Below are positions 17,179 through 28,141 of a stretch of 64,000 nucleotides of DNA, piece after piece; within the stretch, counting starts at the first letter, position 1, and each line of letters opens with the position of its first letter. The DNA lies in the NCBI GenBank assembly GCA_021789935.1, contig JAJYIR010000009.1:1-64000 (forward strand), in the 5' to 3' direction. This DNA comes from Nitrospirota bacterium. Its GTDB lineage: Bacteria > Nitrospirota > Thermodesulfovibrionia > Thermodesulfovibrionales > JdFR-88. Position numbers and translations under genes: made by a program. The notes beneath the pieces were generated by a model. The model saw only the letters and a list, made by a program, of their open reading frames with translations. It had not been told where the DNA came from and ran no database searches.

Positions 17179-18756
17179 TTGGCAATCTGTTTGCGCTATG
17201 GCTATTTACGCGGCGGCGCTTTGCGCACGGGGCATGGGATTTTTCCTTCCAATGCGGCTGCCCTGGTGTTGGCCTCCTTCCTGATGCTGGCTGCTCTCTT
17301 ACCCGCCGGATGCACCGTTGGTCCGGCTTTCAGGAGGCCTCAGACGCCAGTGACCAATAGATATACGGCAGCCGCCCTGCCCGGAAAGACGGAAAACGCT
17401 CCGGTTGCCGGAGGCGCCGCGCAATGCTTCAAACCTGGAGAAGACATTCCGGCCAAATGGTGGAAACTGTTCCATTGCCGGGAGCTTGACCTCCTTGTGC
17501 GAATGGGGATTGCCCAAAGCCGGACTCTGCCTGCTGCGCGGGCCGCGCTGCGCCAGGCATATGAGAACGAGCGCTCCCAGGCCGGTGCGCTCCTTTATCC
17601 GAAAGTTGATGCGACTGCCTCTGCGGTGCGCCAAAAATTTTCAGGGGCTGCGTTCGGCGAACCCGGGGCGCCCGGCATTATATTCAATCTGTTTAACGCC
17701 TCCGCGGCCGTATCGTATATGTTTGATTTGTTTGGAGGCTCCAGGCGGGAGTTGGAGGCGCTCGGGGCACAGGTCGATTATCAGCGCTTTCAACTGGAAG
17801 GGGCATATATTGCGCTTACAGCCAATATCGTCACCGCCGCCGTGCAAGAGGCCTCCCTGCGCGCCCAGATCAGCGTCACAAGAAAAATACTGGCGGACCA
17901 GGAGGACCAGCTCAGGATAGTAAAGCTCCAGTTGGGCCTGGGGGGCGCATCGCGCCCTGACGTGCTTGCTCAAATGGCGCAGCTTGCCCAGACAAGGGCG
18001 GGATTGCCTCCGCTGGAAAAAGCGCTTTCCCATACACGCCACCAGATGGCCGTGCTGACGGGTGTCCTGCCGTCGAATTCAGGCGGGTTGCCTGAAATAG
18101 ACCTGGACAGTCTCCATCTGCCGCAGCGGCTGCCGCTGAGCCTGCCTTCAATGCTTCTCCGGCGGCGCCCGGATATCCGGGCCTCCGAAGCGCTCCTGCA
18201 CGCCGCAAGCGCGCAGATAGGCGTTGCGACCGCCAACATGCTCCCCCAGATAACTTTTACAGGCAGCATAGGGACGGAAACGGCAAGGGTTGAAGATATT
18301 TTTGGCAAGGATACGAGCATTTGGAGCCTTGGGATGTCGTTTCTTCAGCCGCTCTTCCACGGCGGAGAGCTTAAGGCAAAACGCCGTGCCGCCGTGGACG
18401 CTTATGAGCAGGCGCTGGCCCAATACCAGGAGGCCGTCCTTGAGGCGTTCCAGAACGTGGCCGATTCGCTCAGGGCGCTAGACAGGGACGCAGGCACGCT
18501 GAAGGCCCAGGCCCAGGCCTGGGCTGTGGCAAAGGACTCCCTGGATGTAACGCGGAAACAATTCCAATTGGGTGCTGTGAGCTATCTGCAACTCCTGAAT
18601 GCTCAGCGCCAATACCAGCTGGCACGCATAAGCCTGGTACAAGCCCAGGCGGCCCGCTTTGCGGACACGGCCGCACTTTTTCAGGCCCTCGGCGGAGGGT
18701 GGTGGCAACGTAAATTCTCCGCAGTTGCGGACGTCGCCGCAGGCGGGGCCAAGTGA
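17179..18756 (+). CDS. Outer membrane efflux lipoprotein, NodT/OprM type (TolC family)
   Basis: 525 residues. The signal peptide ends in a lipobox (LLPAGC). The FRRP segment after it is typical of NodT-type outer-membrane factors. Two helical OEP repeats follow, with RRRPDIRASEALLHAAS and the second-repeat equivalent; the C-terminal repeat includes YQLARISLVQAQA. It forms the trimeric exit duct for the pump encoded downstream. The start is uncertain: TTG 17179 lacks a clear ribosome site, and later in-frame starts (such as the ATG at 17284) would truncate the signal. The stop overlaps the next start (GTGA). Confidence 0.9.
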   Translation: MAICLRYGYLRGGALRTGHGIFPSNAAALVLASFLMLAALLPAGCTVGPAFRRPQTPVTNRYTAAALPGKTENAPVAGGAAQCFKPGEDIPAKWWKLFHCRELDLLVRMGIAQSRTLPAARAALRQAYENERSQAGALLYPKVDATASAVRQKFSGAAFGEPGAPGIIFNLFNASAAVSYMFDLFGGSRRELEALGAQVDYQRFQLEGAYIALTANIVTAAVQEASLRAQISVTRKILADQEDQLRIVKLQLGLGGASRPDVLAQMAQLAQTRAGLPPLEKALSHTRHQMAVLTGVLPSNSGGLPEIDLDSLHLPQRLPLSLPSMLLRRRPDIRASEALLHAASAQIGVATANMLPQITFTGSIGTETARVEDIFGKDTSIWSLGMSFLQPLFHGGELKAKRRAAVDAYEQALAQYQEAVLEAFQNVADSLRALDRDAGTLKAQAQAWAVAKDSLDVTRKQFQLGAVSYLQLLNAQRQYQLARISLVQAQAARFADTAALFQALGGGWWQRKFSAVADVAAGGAK

Positions 18757-19919
18757 GCAAAAAAACCGCAGCGGAGCGGCCACACATGATACTTGCCATG
18801 ATCATCATGCTGGCGGCCATAGGCCTGCTGTTTGGCGGGATATTTGGCTATCATGCATACAAGGCCCATATGCAGAGGAAGTCAATGGCCCGGTTCCGTC
18901 CCCCGCCTGTGGCCGTAAGCGCAATAGAGGCAAGATATATGTCCTGGCAGCCCAGGATAAAGGCTGTCGGCAGTCTGCGCGCCGTGCGCGGCGTGGATGT
19001 TACCAGCGAGATCGCCGGCATGGTGCGCCGCGTATATTTCAGCTCCGGCCAGGTGAGCAAAAAAAACCAGGTGCTGGTGCAGTTCAACGCGGGCCCCGAC
19101 ATCGCGCTCCTTCATTCACTCGAGGCCGCCGCAGGGCTGGCCCTCACCGTCTATGAGCGGGACAAAAAACAGTTCTTTGCAGCGCAGGCCGTGAGCAGGG
19201 CCACACTGGATGCGGACGCCGCGGACTTGAAGAGCAAACGGGCCCAGGCCGCCCAGCAGAGGGAGATAGTGGCCGAAAAGACCATACGGGCCCCCTTTGC
19301 CGGAAAACTGGGAATAAGCACCGTAAATCCGGGGCAGTACATCAACCCCGGAGACAAAATAGTGACCATTCAGGCCCTCGATATGCTCTATGCAGATTTT
19401 TATCTGCCGCAGCAGGAATTCTCTCGCATCAGTATAGGTCAGAGGGTCATCGCCGGGGCTGACGCGTATCCCGGACGTGAATTCCAGGGTCTGATAACGT
19501 CCATAAACCCTCAGGTGGACCCCTCCACCAGGAACGTCGAGGTTGAGGCCGTGTTCCATAATCCGGGGCACAAGCTTTTGCCCGGCATGTACGTGACGGT
19601 GGACATACTGGCCGGCGGGCCGCAGCGCTATCTGACGCTCCCGCAGACAGCGGTTTCATTCAATCCCTATGGCGAGACCGCCTTTGTTGTTGAAAAAGCC
19701 GGGAAAGGGCCGGGCGGCAAGCCCATACTGGTTGCGAGACAGGTCTTTGTGACTACCGCGGGCACGCGCGGCGACCAGGTGGCCGTGGTCTCGGGCATAA
19801 AGGAAGGCGACATCGTAGTGACAAGCGGCCAGTTGAAACTCAGGAACGGGGCGCAGGTGATCATAAACAACAGCATTCAGCCAAGCGACAACCCCTCTCC
19901 AAAACCCGGGGACAGTTAG
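18753..19919 (+). CDS. RND efflux periplasmic adaptor (membrane fusion protein)
   Basis: 388 residues. One N-terminal membrane anchor (about 10-30). Then a biotinyl-lipoyl half motif (GVDVTSEIAGMVRRVYF), a short coiled-coil hairpin, the second lipoyl half (EKTIRAPFAGKLGISTVNPG) and beta-barrel and membrane-proximal domains (NPGHKLLPGMYVTVDI). It links the inner-membrane RND pump to the outer-membrane lipoprotein. GTG start overlaps the preceding stop by 4 bp; the pump gene starts 25 bp downstream. Confidence 0.93.
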   Translation: MSKKTAAERPHMILAMIIMLAAIGLLFGGIFGYHAYKAHMQRKSMARFRPPPVAVSAIEARYMSWQPRIKAVGSLRAVRGVDVTSEIAGMVRRVYFSSGQVSKKNQVLVQFNAGPDIALLHSLEAAAGLALTVYERDKKQFFAAQAVSRATLDADAADLKSKRAQAAQQREIVAEKTIRAPFAGKLGISTVNPGQYINPGDKIVTIQALDMLYADFYLPQQEFSRISIGQRVIAGADAYPGREFQGLITSINPQVDPSTRNVEVEAVFHNPGHKLLPGMYVTVDILAGGPQRYLTLPQTAVSFNPYGETAFVVEKAGKGPGGKPILVARQVFVTTAGTRGDQVAVVSGIKEGDIVVTSGQLKLRNGAQVIINNSIQPSDNPSPKPGDS

Positions 19920-19944
19920 GACGGAGGAAAAGAAAAAACTCCGA

Positions 19945-22900
19945 ATGAGATTCACGGACATTTTCATCAGACGCCCGGTGCTGGCCACGGTTGTGAGCCT
20001 TCTTATCATGGTGATGGGGCTGCGCTCGATGGGTATCCTCAAGATTCGCGAGTATCCGGAGATACAGAGCTCTGTCGTGACAGTATCGACCACGTACTAT
20101 GGAGCCGATCCTTCGCTGGTAGCGGGCTTTATCACGACCCCGCTTGAAAGCTCCATCGCCCAGGCAAGCGGCATTGATTATCTGACCTCCACGAGTACTC
20201 TTGGGCAAAGTACCATCCAGGCCAACCTGCGTCTGAACTATGATGCGGGCAGGGCGCTAACGGACATCAGCTCCAAAGTGAACGCCGTGCTGAACCAGCT
20301 GCCCAAGGAGGCCCAGACGCCGGTCATCACCGTGGCCACGGGCGAGACGGTAGATTCCATGTACATAGGGTTTTACAGCACGGTGCTGCCCGCAAACAAG
20401 ATTACCGATTACCTTATACGCGTGGTCCAGCCAAAGCTGCAGGCCGTGGACGGCGTGCAGACCGCCGAAATACTGGGCGAACAGCGATTCGCCATGCGGG
20501 CATGGCTTGACCCCCGGAAGATGGCAGCCTATGGCGTCACGGGCTCGGACGTGAACCAGGCCCTGGCGGACAATGACTTTATTTCCGCCGTCGGGCGGAC
20601 CAAGGGCCAGATGGTGACGGTGGACCTGACGGCGGCTACCGGTTTGCATACCGTTGATGAGTTCAGGGACCTCGTCATCAAATCCCGGAACAATGCCATC
20701 ATCCGCCTTGGCGATGTAGCCAACATTACCCTGGGCGCGGAAAACTATGATACCTCCGTTTTCTTTGACGGAAAGGGGGCGGTATATATCGGCATCAAGG
20801 TTGCTCCCACCGCCAACCTGCTTTCCGTTATCAGCGGCATCCACAAGGTGTTCCCGTCAATCCAGCGGCAGCTCCCCCAGGGCTTGAGCGGGCGAATCGT
20901 CTATGATGCCACCAAATATGTGAACAGCTCCATCAGGGAAGTAATAAGCACTATCGCAAAGGCGCTATTGATAGTCACACTGGTGATATTCCTGTCCCTG
21001 GGCTCGCCAAGGTCCGTCATCATCCCCACGGTGGCAATGCCGCTTTCCCTGATAGGGGCTTTTTTCATAATGCTGGCGCTGGGCTATACCATAAACCTGC
21101 TGACGCTGCTTGCCCTGGTGCTGGCCATAGGGTTGGTAGTGGACGATGCGATAATAGTGGTGGAGAATGTCCACCGCCACATCGAGGACGGCATGACGCC
21201 CCTCAACGCCGCCTATCGCGGGGCGAGGGAGCTCGCAAACCCGATAATCGCAATTTCGGTCGTGCTGGTTGCCGTCTATGTCCCAATAGGCTTCATGGGG
21301 GGCCTTACGGGGGCGCTTTTTACCGAATTCGCCTACACCCTGGCGGGGACCGTGGCTGTTTCCGCCGTCATCGCATTGACGCTTTCGCCCATGATGTGTT
21401 CGCGTTTCCTGAAACCATATGCAACGGGCGGACGGCACCGGTTCATGGACTTTGTGGACCGCCAGTTCGGCCGCCTGCGAAGCGGCTACCAGGGCGTTCT
21501 GCACCATTCTCTGACCTATCTGCCCGTCACCGTTGTATTTGCCGCCGCGGTGCTCCTGAGCAACTACTTTCTGTACAAGGATGCAAAGAGCGAGCTTGCC
21601 CCCCAGGAAGACCAGGGCGTCCTCATCGCGATGGCCACGGGGGCGCCCGATGCCACGCTGGAGCAGACCATGCTCTACACCCGGCAGATATACAGGCTTA
21701 TGGCCAGCTATCCGGAAACAGACCATATCTTTCAGCTGGACGGAATAAACGGGCTTAACTCCGGCATTGCGGGCATGGTCTTGAAACCGTGGGACAAGAG
21801 AAAGACAACCACAATGCAGCTTCAGCCTGATCTGCAGGAAAAGCTTGGCGGCATAACTGGCCTTGAATGCGCCGCATTCCAGCCCCCGCCGCTGCCCGGA
21901 GGCGGACAGGGATTGCCGGTACAGTTCGTCATCGGTACAACCGAGCCGTTTGACAGGCTGAACGGCGTGTCCCAGGCACTGGTGCGGAAGGCGCGCGAAA
22001 GCGGCATGTTTGCGTATGTGGACAGCGATCTGAAAATAGACAAGCCCCAGACCACCATAGAGTTCGAACGCGACAAGGCGGCCCAGCTTGGTTTGACGAT
22101 GAACAACGCAGGCGGGGCGCTGGGGGCTATGCTTGGCGGCGGATATGTGAATTATTTCAGCCTGTCCGGACGCTCCTACAAGGTGATACCCCAGGTGATG
22201 CGCAGCGACCGGCTCAACGCCCAGGACCTGGAGAGTTATTATATAAATACCTCTGGAGGCACCCCCATCCCGGTCTCAACCATCGCCAGCCTGAAGACCT
22301 CCGTCGTGCCGGAATCGCTTAATCATTTTCAGCAGCTGAATTCCGCCACCATCTCTGCCGTACCGGTGGGAGGTGTTACCCTGGGGCAGGCCCTGTCCGC
22401 CTTGGGCGGGCTTGCGAGAGGCATTCTTCCCTCCGGGTATAGCATCGATTATGCCGGGCAATCCAGGCAGTACATCCAGGAGTCGAAGGCGCTGCTCGTC
22501 ACGTTCTTCTTCGCGCTTGTCATCATCTTTCTTGCGCTTGCCGCCCTGTTTGAAAGTTTCAGGGACCCTCTCATTGTGCTTGTAAGCGTCCCCATGTCCA
22601 TCTGCGGGGCTATGATATTCATAAGCCTCGGGGTCGGAGGGGCCAGTCTGAACATCTTCACGGAAGTGGGCCTGGTGACGCTTATAGGCCTCATCAGCAA
22701 GCACGGCATCCTGATAGTCCAGTTCGCCAACGACTTGCAGAATGAGGGCAGCGGCAAGCGGGAGGCGGTGGAGATGGCTGCCGCCATACGCCTTCGGCCG
22801 ATATTGATGACCACGGCCGCGATGGTCCTTGGCGTGCTTCCGCTTGTGACGGCCTCGGGGGCGGGAGCGGTGGGCCGCTTCAATATGGGCCTGGTGATAA

Positions 22901-23034
22901 TGACGGGAATCTCGATAGGCACTCTGTTTACGCTTTTTGTGGTGCCGGCGATGTATATGCTCCTGGCTGCGGACCGCTCAAAAAAACCGCAGCCGGAAGG
23001 CCCTCATCCTGAAGACTTGCAACCGTGGGAGTAA
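19945..23034 (+). CDS. RND multidrug efflux transporter (HAE1/AcrB-like)
   Basis: 1029 residues, the normal length for an HAE1 pump. The N-terminal signature is FIRRPVLATVVSLLI. The proton-relay Asp pair is in GLVVDDAIIVVEN (TM4). There are two large periplasmic loops and a repeated second half with GLISKHGILIVQFAN and RLRPILMTTAAMVLGVLP. AYRGARELANPIIA is the conserved cytoplasmic stretch. It exports drugs, detergents or similar compounds by proton antiport with the two upstream products. The substrate cannot be told from sequence, and no regulator gene sits beside the operon. Confidence 0.95.
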   Translation: MRFTDIFIRRPVLATVVSLLIMVMGLRSMGILKIREYPEIQSSVVTVSTTYYGADPSLVAGFITTPLESSIAQASGIDYLTSTSTLGQSTIQANLRLNYDAGRALTDISSKVNAVLNQLPKEAQTPVITVATGETVDSMYIGFYSTVLPANKITDYLIRVVQPKLQAVDGVQTAEILGEQRFAMRAWLDPRKMAAYGVTGSDVNQALADNDFISAVGRTKGQMVTVDLTAATGLHTVDEFRDLVIKSRNNAIIRLGDVANITLGAENYDTSVFFDGKGAVYIGIKVAPTANLLSVISGIHKVFPSIQRQLPQGLSGRIVYDATKYVNSSIREVISTIAKALLIVTLVIFLSLGSPRSVIIPTVAMPLSLIGAFFIMLALGYTINLLTLLALVLAIGLVVDDAIIVVENVHRHIEDGMTPLNAAYRGARELANPIIAISVVLVAVYVPIGFMGGLTGALFTEFAYTLAGTVAVSAVIALTLSPMMCSRFLKPYATGGRHRFMDFVDRQFGRLRSGYQGVLHHSLTYLPVTVVFAAAVLLSNYFLYKDAKSELAPQEDQGVLIAMATGAPDATLEQTMLYTRQIYRLMASYPETDHIFQLDGINGLNSGIAGMVLKPWDKRKTTTMQLQPDLQEKLGGITGLECAAFQPPPLPGGGQGLPVQFVIGTTEPFDRLNGVSQALVRKARESGMFAYVDSDLKIDKPQTTIEFERDKAAQLGLTMNNAGGALGAMLGGGYVNYFSLSGRSYKVIPQVMRSDRLNAQDLESYYINTSGGTPIPVSTIASLKTSVVPESLNHFQQLNSATISAVPVGGVTLGQALSALGGLARGILPSGYSIDYAGQSRQYIQESKALLVTFFFALVIIFLALAALFESFRDPLIVLVSVPMSICGAMIFISLGVGGASLNIFTEVGLVTLIGLISKHGILIVQFANDLQNEGSGKREAVEMAAAIRLRPILMTTAAMVLGVLPLVTASGAGAVGRFNMGLVIMTGISIGTLFTLFVVPAMYMLLAADRSKKPQPEGPHPEDLQPWE

Positions 23035-23124
23035 CGGAATAAGGGACTATATGTAAAAATGCTGTTATGAAAAACCCAAAACCTTCAATTATTGAAAAAA
23101 AGCGGACGGGGAAAAAAACGGCAC

Positions 23125-23979
23125 TTAAGGAGTGTAATATTTCCCGTTGGCCTCCTCCCCGATAATGGCGAATTTTGCCTTGGAGTTTTCCAGCGGGCCG
23201 GACTTCCACGAAAAACCGGTCTCAGGGACCTCTACCGCCGCCTCCATCTGCGCCACTGCTTTATATCCGTCCACACGGAACTGTTTTTGAGGGTCGTTGT
23301 AACTGATCTTCTCGCCGGTCGCCTTCCAGACTATCTTTATGTCCATCCTGGCCGGCGTCGCCTTCGCCTTGAATTCGGGCCAAGCGGGCTGGTCTATTAT
23401 CCTTATTCCCTTAAGCTCAAGGACCGCCGTTTTCCCGCCATCGCCGAACTTGAGCCCGCCTTCCGGCACGGGGACCACCCAGTAAAGTCCGCAGAGGCCC
23501 ACCGGAGGATGGAAATCATGCACCTGGTTTGCATGGGACAACTGCCCCTTGAAGAGCGTCACTCACAAATGGGCAAAAGTCCCCTTGCGGGCCTCGCGCC
23601 CCGTAAAATATTCGCCGTGCATGACGCCGTTGTCGGTGGTAGGGCTTCCGAAGGCAAGACGGTTCCCCTTGTTGTCGGTGCCCATGCCGGTGAAGTCGCT
23701 GCAACGCGCTACCCTGCCTTTAAAGTGATATATGCTGGAGGGCTCATTGCCTGCGCCCGCGGGCTGGTTATGGCTGCCGTTTTTATCGAGCCACGGGATG
23801 GGGTATGGTGCGGTGCTGCCGTCATAAGTGAATACCCTTGGGTCATCTGAAGACGTTTTTTCCGCCCCCGAGGCGCCAGGCAGGTGCAAGACGGATGCGG
23901 CCGCAAGGACCATGCCTGAGGCAAGAAAGCCCCGCCTGCTGAATCTGCCTGGCGGCGGTAATTTTTTTTTGGAGTCCAT
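23125..23979 (-). CDS. Tat-signal exported protein of unknown function, interrupted by an in-frame TGA
   Basis: One continuous frame of about 284 codons with a single TGA at 23565-23563. The first part starts with a twin-arginine signal (FSRRGFLASG, then AAASVLHLPGASGAE), so the product is exported folded. The second part continues in the same frame directly after the TGA (VTLFKGQLSHANQVHDFHPP), with uniform composition and no frameshift. A GAGGAGGT ribosome site lies 7 bp before the ATG. The protein has scattered His, Cys and Met residues. TGA is a normal stop elsewhere in this window. Options are a Trp (TGG) to TGA mutation making a pseudogene, readthrough, or selenocysteine. A 6-bp hairpin (CATGCA/TGCATG) begins 27 bases after the TGA. 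The family is not recognised. Confidence 0.6.
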
Positions 23980-24026
23980 GGAATATACCTCCTCTGATTG
24001 GATTTTGGACCTTTTATTTATTTTTT

Positions 24027-24969: not shown

Positions 24970-25572
24970 TTAATTACTCGCTGGTTTTAAAGAAAGACCC
25001 GTGGGTTTCCAGGAAATAAACGCATGGTCCATTGCTGTTGTGCTTCCAAAGGGAATATGCCCGAAGCGGATCGAAAGTTGTTTGTCTGCCTCAGCTTTAG
25101 TTTCCCTGTCCGCGGCCACCTTCCACATGGCGGCGAACAGCCCGGATCTGTCAGCCCCGGACTTGCAGTGTATCAGTACAGGCCGGGGCGCGCTCTTTAT
25201 TATCATCATGAGCTCTCGCATTTGTGCGGCGGTAGGTTCCGATGAGGCGGAGAGCCCGACATCGTAATGCCTGATCCCATTGGCCGCGCTGAACCTTACC
25301 TCATCCTGATACCACTTGTCGCCGGGATTGCTGCCGCGCAAGTTGATAATACTCCTTATCCCGTATGCTTTCATGTAATGTTCAAGCTGGTTGTAGCCGG
25401 GCTGGGCGCACCTGTACGCCTCCCCCGGTGTCACCGCATGAAAGTTGCCGTTGCCGAAGATGAGCAAATAATATCCGGCCGGAATTAAAAGGGCGATCAT
25501 GATGACGACGAAGATCCTGCGGACTGTCTTTTTTTTAGTGGCAGATGCTTGCGGTTTCTCTATGTACGCCAT
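24970..25572 (-). CDS. Membrane-anchored dual-specificity/tyrosine phosphatase-like protein
   Basis: 200 residues. One N-terminal membrane segment (about 20-40), then a phosphatase domain with the Cx5R loop HCKSGADRSG (Cys 136, Arg 142). The opening motif NGNFHAVTPGEAYRCAQP is typical of small bacterial dual-specificity-like phosphatases. The likely general acid lies in the HYDVGLSAS region. The catalytic domain should face the periplasm if the positive N-terminus stays inside. Substrates could be phosphoproteins or phosphorylated lipids or sugars. A GAAAGG ribosome site lies 8 bp before the ATG. It sits 72 bp after the copD stop and may belong to that operon. Confidence 0.85.
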   Translation of the reverse strand: MAYIEKPQASATKKKTVRRIFVVIMIALLIPAGYYLLIFGNGNFHAVTPGEAYRCAQPGYNQLEHYMKAYGIRSIINLRGSNPGDKWYQDEVRFSAANGIRHYDVGLSASSEPTAAQMRELMMIIKSAPRPVLIHCKSGADRSGLFAAMWKVAADRETKAEADKQLSIRFGHIPFGSTTAMDHAFISWKPTGLSLKPASN

Positions 25573-25644
25573 GGCGGCCGCCTTTCAATTTTTAATCAGC
25601 TTTTATTTTAAACCATGCGGACAGGAAAAAGAAAAGGATGCGGG

Positions 25645-26739
25645 CTACATGCCTCCCATATCCCGCATTCCGCCCCCAAGGTTTTGGGGGCCATGGCCCA
25701 TCTGTTCCAGGTGCTCATCTTTCATGTGAAGATAATGGCGCGCGGGGGGCTCGCTGGAGAGGAAGGCCGCAGCCAGGAGAAGCGAAAACACCAGAAACAT
25801 CTCGGCCCTCACAAGTTTTTTGAACAGAAGTGCCATTTTAAGGCCTTCCCGGCCTTTCGTAAACGGAGAGAAAAGGAGGCGGACCATCCGGCCGGCAATC
25901 CCCGGTTTGCCTGGAGAAAGACCGGCCCAGTGCTGAAGGACTGGGACGCTTATGTACCTGTTGAACGCCCCCAGGTTAAGAATGGCCAAAAACAGAATGA
26001 TCTTTGAGGCCGCCGTGAGGCCGTAAGGCGTATCCAGGAGAGCCCTGATGCTGCCCACGTAAATCTGGTAATTTATGGCGGCGGTAACAGCCATGACCGC
26101 CACCCCGGCGCCTGCCATGGCTGAGAACCTGCGCGCAATGCCCGCAATGACGGCAGGACTGGCAGAGGGACCAGGCGTGCCGGCCGTTCGTATGACCCGT
26201 GGAAGCACCAGGAGGGAAAGCGCAAGTAAACCGCCTCCCCATACCTCCGCTCCCAAAAGATGGAACCAGTTGTTAATCTCCGGCAAGCTGAAATCCCCTT
26301 TGTCCGCCGCATGTCCGAATGCGCTTTCGGTCAGTGATACAAGAAGCAGGATAACCAGGACTAGAACGGGCACCGGACGCCCCGCGCGGCGCTTTTTCCC
26401 GGACACCAGCAATACGGCGGCCAGTAAAAAAAGCAGTGATATCCTGATCATCCAGACGCGACCGAAGTGGGTCCCTGATATGACCAGCGCAAGCATATTG
26501 ACGGAATGGAAAAATGAGAGGCCTGATATCCTCGATACGCGGGCCAGCAGGTTTACGGCGGATGCCGCGGCCATCAAGCCTATGGCCGGGCCGAATGGCC
26601 TCCACAAATTGGGAAGGATCTCTTCTGCCGTGAACTTCACCCCGCCGCCTTCCAGGACCAGCAGGCGGCAGAAGACCGTGCCGGTCATGAAAACCAGCGC
26701 GATGAGCTCTATCCATTTTGATATCACGTCAATGATCAT
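25645..26739 (-). CDS. copD: CopD-family copper resistance membrane protein
   Basis: 364 residues with about eight membrane segments. The CopD-type core begins SKWIELIALVFMTGTVFCRL and includes INNWFHLLGAEVWGGGLLAL. The C-terminal tail is rich in His and Met (HYLHMKDEHLEQMGHG, then MRDMGGM), which suits copper binding. It probably moves copper across the inner membrane together with CopC. A GGAGG ribosome site lies 5 bp before the ATG. It lies downstream of copC, separated by 77 bp that hold an AATTT tandem repeat. Confidence 0.88.
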   Translation of the reverse strand: MIIDVISKWIELIALVFMTGTVFCRLLVLEGGGVKFTAEEILPNLWRPFGPAIGLMAAASAVNLLARVSRISGLSFFHSVNMLALVISGTHFGRVWMIRISLLFLLAAVLLVSGKKRRAGRPVPVLVLVILLLVSLTESAFGHAADKGDFSLPEINNWFHLLGAEVWGGGLLALSLLVLPRVIRTAGTPGPSASPAVIAGIARRFSAMAGAGVAVMAVTAAINYQIYVGSIRALLDTPYGLTAASKIILFLAILNLGAFNRYISVPVLQHWAGLSPGKPGIAGRMVRLLFSPFTKGREGLKMALLFKKLVRAEMFLVFSLLLAAAFLSSEPPARHYLHMKDEHLEQMGHGPQNLGGGMRDMGGM

Positions 26740-26790
26740 GCGGCCTCCATGGGAAAATCAAAATCAAAAAAACCCTTTTTTGACTTTTTT

Positions 26791-26812
26791 AATTTAATTT
26801 AATTTAATTTAA
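26791..26812. repeat. AATTT tandem repeat (four copies plus AA)
   Basis: Pentamer AATTT repeated four times in the copC-copD gap, preceded by T-runs. A simple-sequence tract in GC-richer surroundings, which could vary in copy number. Confidence 0.85.
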
Positions 26813-26816
26813 AAGA

Positions 26817-27254
26817 TCATTTGACCGTAAACGTAAAATCTCCCTCCGTCCTGTGCGTGTCCCTGGCAACGACGTTCCAATATACGCGATAAGTCCCCGG
26901 CGGAAGAGGAGGAACGCTTACCATGAGCAGCGAATCGTTGGAAGGGTCTACGTGGCTGTCTCCCTTGTCCACCCGCTTCCCGGCGGAGTTTTCGACAACT
27001 ATACTGGAAAAAAGGGGCTCGATGTCGCTATCGAACCAGATGCTCACACTCCCGACATTGCCGGACACCGTTGCTCCTACCTTCGGGTTCGAATGGTCGG
27101 GAAAGGCATGCCCGCTTGAGGAAACGGGCAAAAAGAAGATGCATGCCATGGAAAAAAGAATGAAAACGGAAAGATGCCCTCCGTCCGCCTTCCGAAAATC
27201 AGAAAATGGGAAAAAAGAAAAAGCAAAAAATGCGGCCGGTCCATTTTTTTTCAA
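26817..27254 (-). CDS. copC: CopC-family periplasmic copper-binding protein
   Basis: Mature CopC domain of about 95 residues: the first His in GHAFPDHSNPKVGATV (copper ligand at the new N-terminus), DSDIEPLFSSIVVEN, then PPLPPGTYRVYWNVVARD and the HRTEGD motif with the second His ligand. It carries Cu in the periplasm for CopD. The start is unclear. The only in-frame ATG (27149) leaves a signal peptide with no positive end. TTG 27254 overlaps the upstream stop as TTGA and gives a long but possible signal, so I use it with reservation. It follows the barrel gene and precedes copD. Confidence 0.8.
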   Translation of the reverse strand: MKKNGPAAFFAFSFFPFSDFRKADGGHLSVFILFSMACIFFLPVSSSGHAFPDHSNPKVGATVSGNVGSVSIWFDSDIEPLFSSIVVENSAGKRVDKGDSHVDPSNDSLLMVSVPPLPPGTYRVYWNVVARDTHRTEGDFTFTVK

Positions 27255-28141
27255 CGGAAGACCGGCGCCCCAATGCCCGCAGGCCACAAGTCGTCCACAA
27301 ACAGGTGAATGAGTCCGAGCACGCCCACACCCCTGCCGGAGCTGGAATTCACAGGGAATTGCGCCGCGGCCCCGAATTCCATGTACTTGGTGAACCATAC
27401 TATACCGGGATTGATTGTCCCCATGGTCTGGTCCTTGGCATCCCCGCCAAGGGCGGTCTGCATGGGAAACTCGGTCACTAAAATAAAATGATTGAAAGGA
27501 GGGCCAAGCCCGATGTCTTTTATGAAGGACTGAAGGTATATGATGCTGTATTGGAGGGTAAAGTCCCATGTGAGGGTTTTGTCCTCGCCGTTTGTTGGGA
27601 AGTTAGGTCCGATGTCGCCGGTGATTGCAAGCGGCCTCAGATATTTCAGCGCTTCGGGGAACTCGGGGAACCCCTTGCCGAAAAAAATTCCAGGGGAGAC
27701 CTCTGAAAAAGAATCGGACAACTGATGCGCTCCCGTCCCTCCGATCTCGACGTCCGTTCCGAGTGAGGCGATGGCCTCATGCTCCTCATTCGTGAAAAAC
27801 TGCCACTTGGCGCCCAGTTCAAAATTCTCCCATCCGTTGGCGTCTCCGGGCGAGGAAGTAAGGTGCTGGTATGCCTCATGGAATTCAAGCCCGAAGCGGG
27901 GCAAAATGCGTTTTGAATAGTCTATGTTTATCTCCGTGGAGTTTCCATAGGACGGCCCGGAGGGCAGCTTCATATTGTTTATGAGAATTGAAAATTCATC
28001 CGAGATGAATGGGTCGTTAACCTGAAACGTGGTTGGGAAAAACCTCTTCCCCGCAAAACCGTGGGCCCATGAGAACGAGGGAATTAAAAGGGCGATGAGC
28101 ATACAGGCAAAAATCAGAAATCCCCTTTTTTTTGCGTTCAT
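27251..28141 (-). CDS. Outer-membrane beta-barrel-like protein of the copper cluster
   Basis: 296 residues. Signal peptide (ends SFSWAHG), then a sequence rich in alternating hydrophobic strands (FGLEFHEAYQHLTS, FENFELGAKWQFF-like, then FGAAAQFPVN), ending in a conserved-looking tail with aromatic residues. This is the pattern of a small outer-membrane barrel. It resembles the transporter-like barrels often annotated beside copC/copD. Function unknown; a porin or copper-export role is inference. It is the first gene of the barrel-copC-copD run. Confidence 0.65.
   Translation of the reverse strand: MNAKKRGFLIFACMLIALLIPSFSWAHGFAGKRFFPTTFQVNDPFISDEFSILINNMKLPSGPSYGNSTEINIDYSKRILPRFGLEFHEAYQHLTSSPGDANGWENFELGAKWQFFTNEEHEAIASLGTDVEIGGTGAHQLSDSFSEVSPGIFFGKGFPEFPEALKYLRPLAITGDIGPNFPTNGEDKTLTWDFTLQYSIIYLQSFIKDIGLGPPFNHFILVTEFPMQTALGGDAKDQTMGTINPGIVWFTKYMEFGAAAQFPVNSSSGRGVGVLGLIHLFVDDLWPAGIGAPVFR

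Follow-up and report, generated by a model that had tools for sequence, protein, structure and literature searches.

The gene on the minus strand at 23125..23979 of the window (the whole 64,000-nucleotide stretch of Nitrospirota DNA analyzed here) almost certainly codes for a true selenoprotein, one whose family is undescribed, judging from sequence, with selenocysteine (Sec) inserted at residue 139. It has 284 codons followed by TAA, with one TGA that would be read through (codon 139, 23563..23565, minus strand), and about 40 homologues have the same layout. The first-pass annotation had described a 284-codon frame with one in-frame TGA and no other damage, a strong ribosome site and a twin-arginine motif, and all of these are confirmed. 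TAA ends the frame, the strong ribosome-binding site AGAGGAGG (23988..23995, minus strand) can be taken directly from the sequence, and the twin-arginine (Tat) signal peptide SRRGFL...GASGA (23863..23979, minus strand) covers approximately residues 1-39, up to a putative cleavage site. Decay, readthrough and selenocysteine had been left open, with a TGG-to-TGA mutation considered equally possible. Selenocysteine is now supported, because the homologues have TGA at this codon, in one case Ser and never Trp, selA and selB are present, and purifying selection continues after the TGA; the equal standing of the mutation is not upheld.

Homologues of the gene are widespread. Of 60 relatives searched in all six reading frames, seven more genomes, all of this family, carry it with exactly one TGA each. 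A contig search gave 33 loci, from MAGs labelled Nitrospirae, Acidobacteria, Deltaproteobacteria, Syntrophaceae, Verrucomicrobia and Betaproteobacteria and from two cultured carriers, Anaeromyxobacter soli SG29 and A. terrae SG22. Overall, the roughly 40 distinct homologues come from Nitrospirota, Acidobacteriota, Myxococcota, deltaproteobacterial and other MAGs, and the two cultured Anaeromyxobacter. Profile searches of about 1,380 genomes from four phyla yielded extra members, all with TGA, while the viral contigs and plasmids searched contained no homologue. Four members are very divergent (L113, L114, L115 and L121) and all have TGA; the three of them included in the alignment share 26-28% identity with the window protein, and the motif around the Sec site in the divergent members is FALIUIDLFEPGSGSQIHD or similar. 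The search patterns leave out the Sec site, so they are not biased toward Sec over Cys. The proposed check of position 139 among homologues gave a clear answer: the aligned codon is TGA in every one except L009, where it is TCC (Ser). Trp does not occur at the site in any homologue, and Cys was not found there in the 33 contig loci or in the profile searches of about 1,380 genomes, an incomplete sampling. A former Trp codon turned into TGA by a nonsense mutation or a sequencing error, in a gene that is decaying, is permitted only by a single-genome view. With Trp in no homologue, the TGA common to independent assemblies from several phyla and purifying selection persisting past it, nonsense decay is refuted and its probability is negligible.

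L009 is a second copy of the gene in the same-genus genome G003 (L009:1492-2373; G003:C93:21270-22106), which also carries an intact Sec copy. In the tree it lies on a long branch inside the Sec clade, adjoining a Nitrospirota sequence, and the change from Sec to Ser is therefore a derived loss. The mixed phylum labels in the tree suggest gene transfer or mislabelled bins. Two further loci are incomplete or unusual. L010 (G009:C34:35968-36060) is a 31-codon C-terminal fragment with 77% identity; its genome contains a full copy as well, and the fragment may be a decayed duplicate. L121 (G831:C209), a divergent Sec member, appears to be fused in frame to an N-terminus resembling polysaccharide-synthesis proteins, possibly due to a chimeric contig.

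Codons on both sides of the TGA are under strong purifying selection. Comparison of the window gene with six relatives gave a dN/dS of 0.04-0.07 5' of the TGA, where unsaturated, and 0.08-0.20 3' of it, and therefore the 145 residues past the TGA are translated in frame and selected. The ORF listing also shows a 138-aa Tat protein and a 145-aa protein that begins at a GTG directly after the TGA, which would make this a pair of genes. However, the GTG is confined to the window clade and is replaced by CTN in nearly all other members, the predicted fold spans the junction, and L009, the Ser paralogue, forms a single uninterrupted frame, so a two-gene arrangement is exceedingly improbable. Among 12 of the 52 listed frames of the window, no other TGA-interrupted gene is as good as this one.

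A bacterial SECIS-type hairpin, GGGGC-AGUU-GUCCC (23535..23548, minus strand), lies directly after the TGA. Published bSECIS rules specify an apical loop of 3-9 nt, a stem of 4-16 bp, a G in the first two loop positions, a distance of 16-37 nt from the UGA and an energy of at most -7.5 kcal/mol (PMC13188914). The window hairpin agrees with all of them, with a 5 bp stem, the loop AGUU (a G, then U) located 19 nt past the TGA, and an energy of -8.0 kcal/mol with one flanking base per side (-6.5 kcal/mol for the bare 14 nt). The hairpin is conserved through compensatory changes, and takes forms such as GGGGCA-GGC-UGCCCC, GGGACC-GGC-GGUCCC and GGGAUC-GUC-GAUCCC in relatives; in the divergent members it occurs at the same place with a different sequence. 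Across 28 sequences 87.5% of the pair cells have standard pairing, clearly above the slid controls (30-51%). Two-sided changes affect four of the eight pairs, in 31 cells, a level reached in none of 500 shuffles. All hairpin constraints are passed by 37 of 40 homologues, compared with 11% of the remaining codons of these genes; L027, L029 and L024 each fail one constraint under the strict test. The first-pass annotation had pointed to a different hairpin, CATGCA/AACCAGG/TGCATG (23517..23535, minus strand), which overlaps the 3' end of the conserved one. This hairpin does exist. It folds only weakly (-6.6 kcal/mol), however, neither of its first two loop bases is a G, and it is unconserved, with 26% of its cells paired among homologues, equal to the shuffle level. 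It is rejected as the SECIS element on account of the missing loop G and the shuffle-level conservation.

The selenocysteine machinery is encoded outside the window. No sel genes had been seen within it, correctly, and the suggested genome check found intact selA and selB elsewhere in the source genome; the same check located no tRNA-Sec gene in the 60-contig assembly, by DNA search, covariance model or ARAGORN run on candidates. For some Nitrospirae selC has been reported within or beside selB or selA, and no hidden selC was found in those two regions of the source genome. The scanned genes that flank selA or selB do not include selD. The source assembly is rated 100% complete and has selA and selB intact, yet it lacks a tRNA-Sec gene. 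The same-genus genomes G001 and G003 do carry a tRNA-Sec with anticodon tca, as do the family genomes G004 and G009, with ARAGORN confirmation for G003, G004 and G009. Since two same-genus genomes carry it, the absence is most simply, if not provably, an assembly or binning gap. Among the host genomes of distant homologues, all 14 tested contain selA at a score above the cut-off; within the order of the source genome its presence is uninformative, as nearly all genomes there have it. TGA serves as a terminator in several members of the family, so there is no general change of the code. The lack of tRNA-Sec in the source assembly would also fit a near-cognate tRNA, for Trp or another amino acid, that reads through the stop to give short and long forms of the protein without selenocysteine. 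This readthrough is very unlikely given that the SECIS-type hairpin is conserved and covarying, that every tested host genome carrying the gene has selA, and that the sense codon in the sole non-TGA member encodes Ser and not Trp.

With the window protein, 30 family members and the divergent sequences as queries, Pfam and NCBIfam gave only weak sub-threshold hits (Tat-signal and similar), and a sequence search of the PDB had no match. The Pfam TAT_signal model matches the window protein with an E of 0.035, below the cut-off, and is detected in 10 of 30 family members, while the RR of the Tat motif is invariant or nearly so in alignment A1. AlphaFold2 predicts a confident all-beta domain for residues 75-284 (pLDDT 89.5, pTM 0.87), whose core comprises residues 83-284 (23128..23733, minus strand) in the model, and residue 139 is placed at a break between two predicted strands. 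Foldseek searches of the PDB with two models returned no structural neighbor with E < 0.001. Only one member of the main alignment lacks His154, which L113-L115 and L009 also retain, and Asp155 occurs in nearly all members; His137 and His157 never vary within the main clade but are replaced in L113-L115. The only common cysteine is C93, present in 25 of 30 members and Ala or Ser elsewhere. No resolving Cys near the Sec and no CxxU or UxxC motif was found in the family, and since C93 is not invariant, a simple thiol redox pair of the UxxC or CxxU type is excluded.

The protein is most likely an exported selenol-based redox enzyme. Based on sequence and covariation, SelB together with Sec-tRNA would bind the hairpin 19 nt past the UGA, and Sec would be inserted at residue 139. 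The folded protein, bearing the twin-arginine motif, would then be exported by the Tat pathway, and the predicted all-beta domain would reside in the cell envelope. There the selenol at residue 139 would most likely act as a catalytic nucleophile or as a redox center without a resolving Cys, and conservation suggests that His154, and also Asp155, may assist it. If this is a selenoprotein, the leading guess for the reaction is the reduction of peroxide or a similar oxidant, a guess about as apt to be wrong as right. On the same premise, the main alternative function is the binding of a soft metal, which seems rather unlikely.

Some selenoprotein formate dehydrogenases are exported folded via Tat. 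The new family would likewise involve folded export of a Sec protein; unlike those enzymes, it is a small all-beta protein with no molybdopterin domain, and the two share no homology. Foldseek shows a weak overall beta-barrel likeness to OmpX, LmcA and YceI-like barrels, which are outer-membrane or lipid-binding proteins, with none at E < 0.001, and the Tat signal argues against an outer-membrane barrel. The gene shares with bacterial selenoproteins in general the in-frame UGA, the SECIS-type hairpin directly after it and the SelA/SelB machinery. The recoding mechanism is standard; what is new, as far as tested, is the protein family together with its apparent restriction to Sec. A 2026 catalogue lists 119 prokaryotic selenoprotein families and subfamilies (Table 1 of PMC13188914), and no entry has the motif H[IL]U[LV]T[LI]F or the same domain. 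The NCBIfam selenoprotein models have no sequence match to the family, and full-text searches covering the main text of open-access journal articles turned up no description of it.

The apparent lack of Cys homologues contradicts the statement in the 2025 deep-Sep paper that all known selenoproteins appear to have them (PMC12013277). Its authors note that their method may filter out selenoproteins without Cys homologues (PMC12013277), a step that would account for this family having been overlooked. GrdA, the glycine reductase selenoprotein A, was likewise once thought to lack Cys homologues, which were found later (PMC12013277). GrdA differs from the new family in having a CxxU motif (PMC12013277), and no sequence relation between the two is seen. 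Whether Sec is obligatory in this widespread exported family, Cys being unable to perform the chemistry at residue 139 so that no Cys form exists, appears evenly balanced. Obligate Sec, if true, would be an exception to the rule, as stated, that Cys homologues exist for all selenoproteins, and would account for discovery methods based on Cys/Sec pairs not having found the family. A family that retains Sec down to about 26-28% identity allows the rule to be tested directly, and likewise the reasons for which selenium is retained. Its members belong to several phyla of bacteria from soil, peat and other environments, and the two cultured Anaeromyxobacter strains make it testable. Annotation pipelines will split such genes in two.

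The neighboring genes include, upstream, those for a DSP-type phosphatase, CopD and CopC (24970-27569, minus strand) and, downstream, an RND efflux pair (18753-23034, plus strand). A function derived from the neighbors (CopC/CopD, Slp, phosphatase, RND) was rejected, as they are common to the closest relatives only. A 252-aa open frame at 23092-23850 (plus strand) lies antisense to the selenoprotein gene; homologues repeatedly show such frames too, which codon usage probably produces as a side effect.
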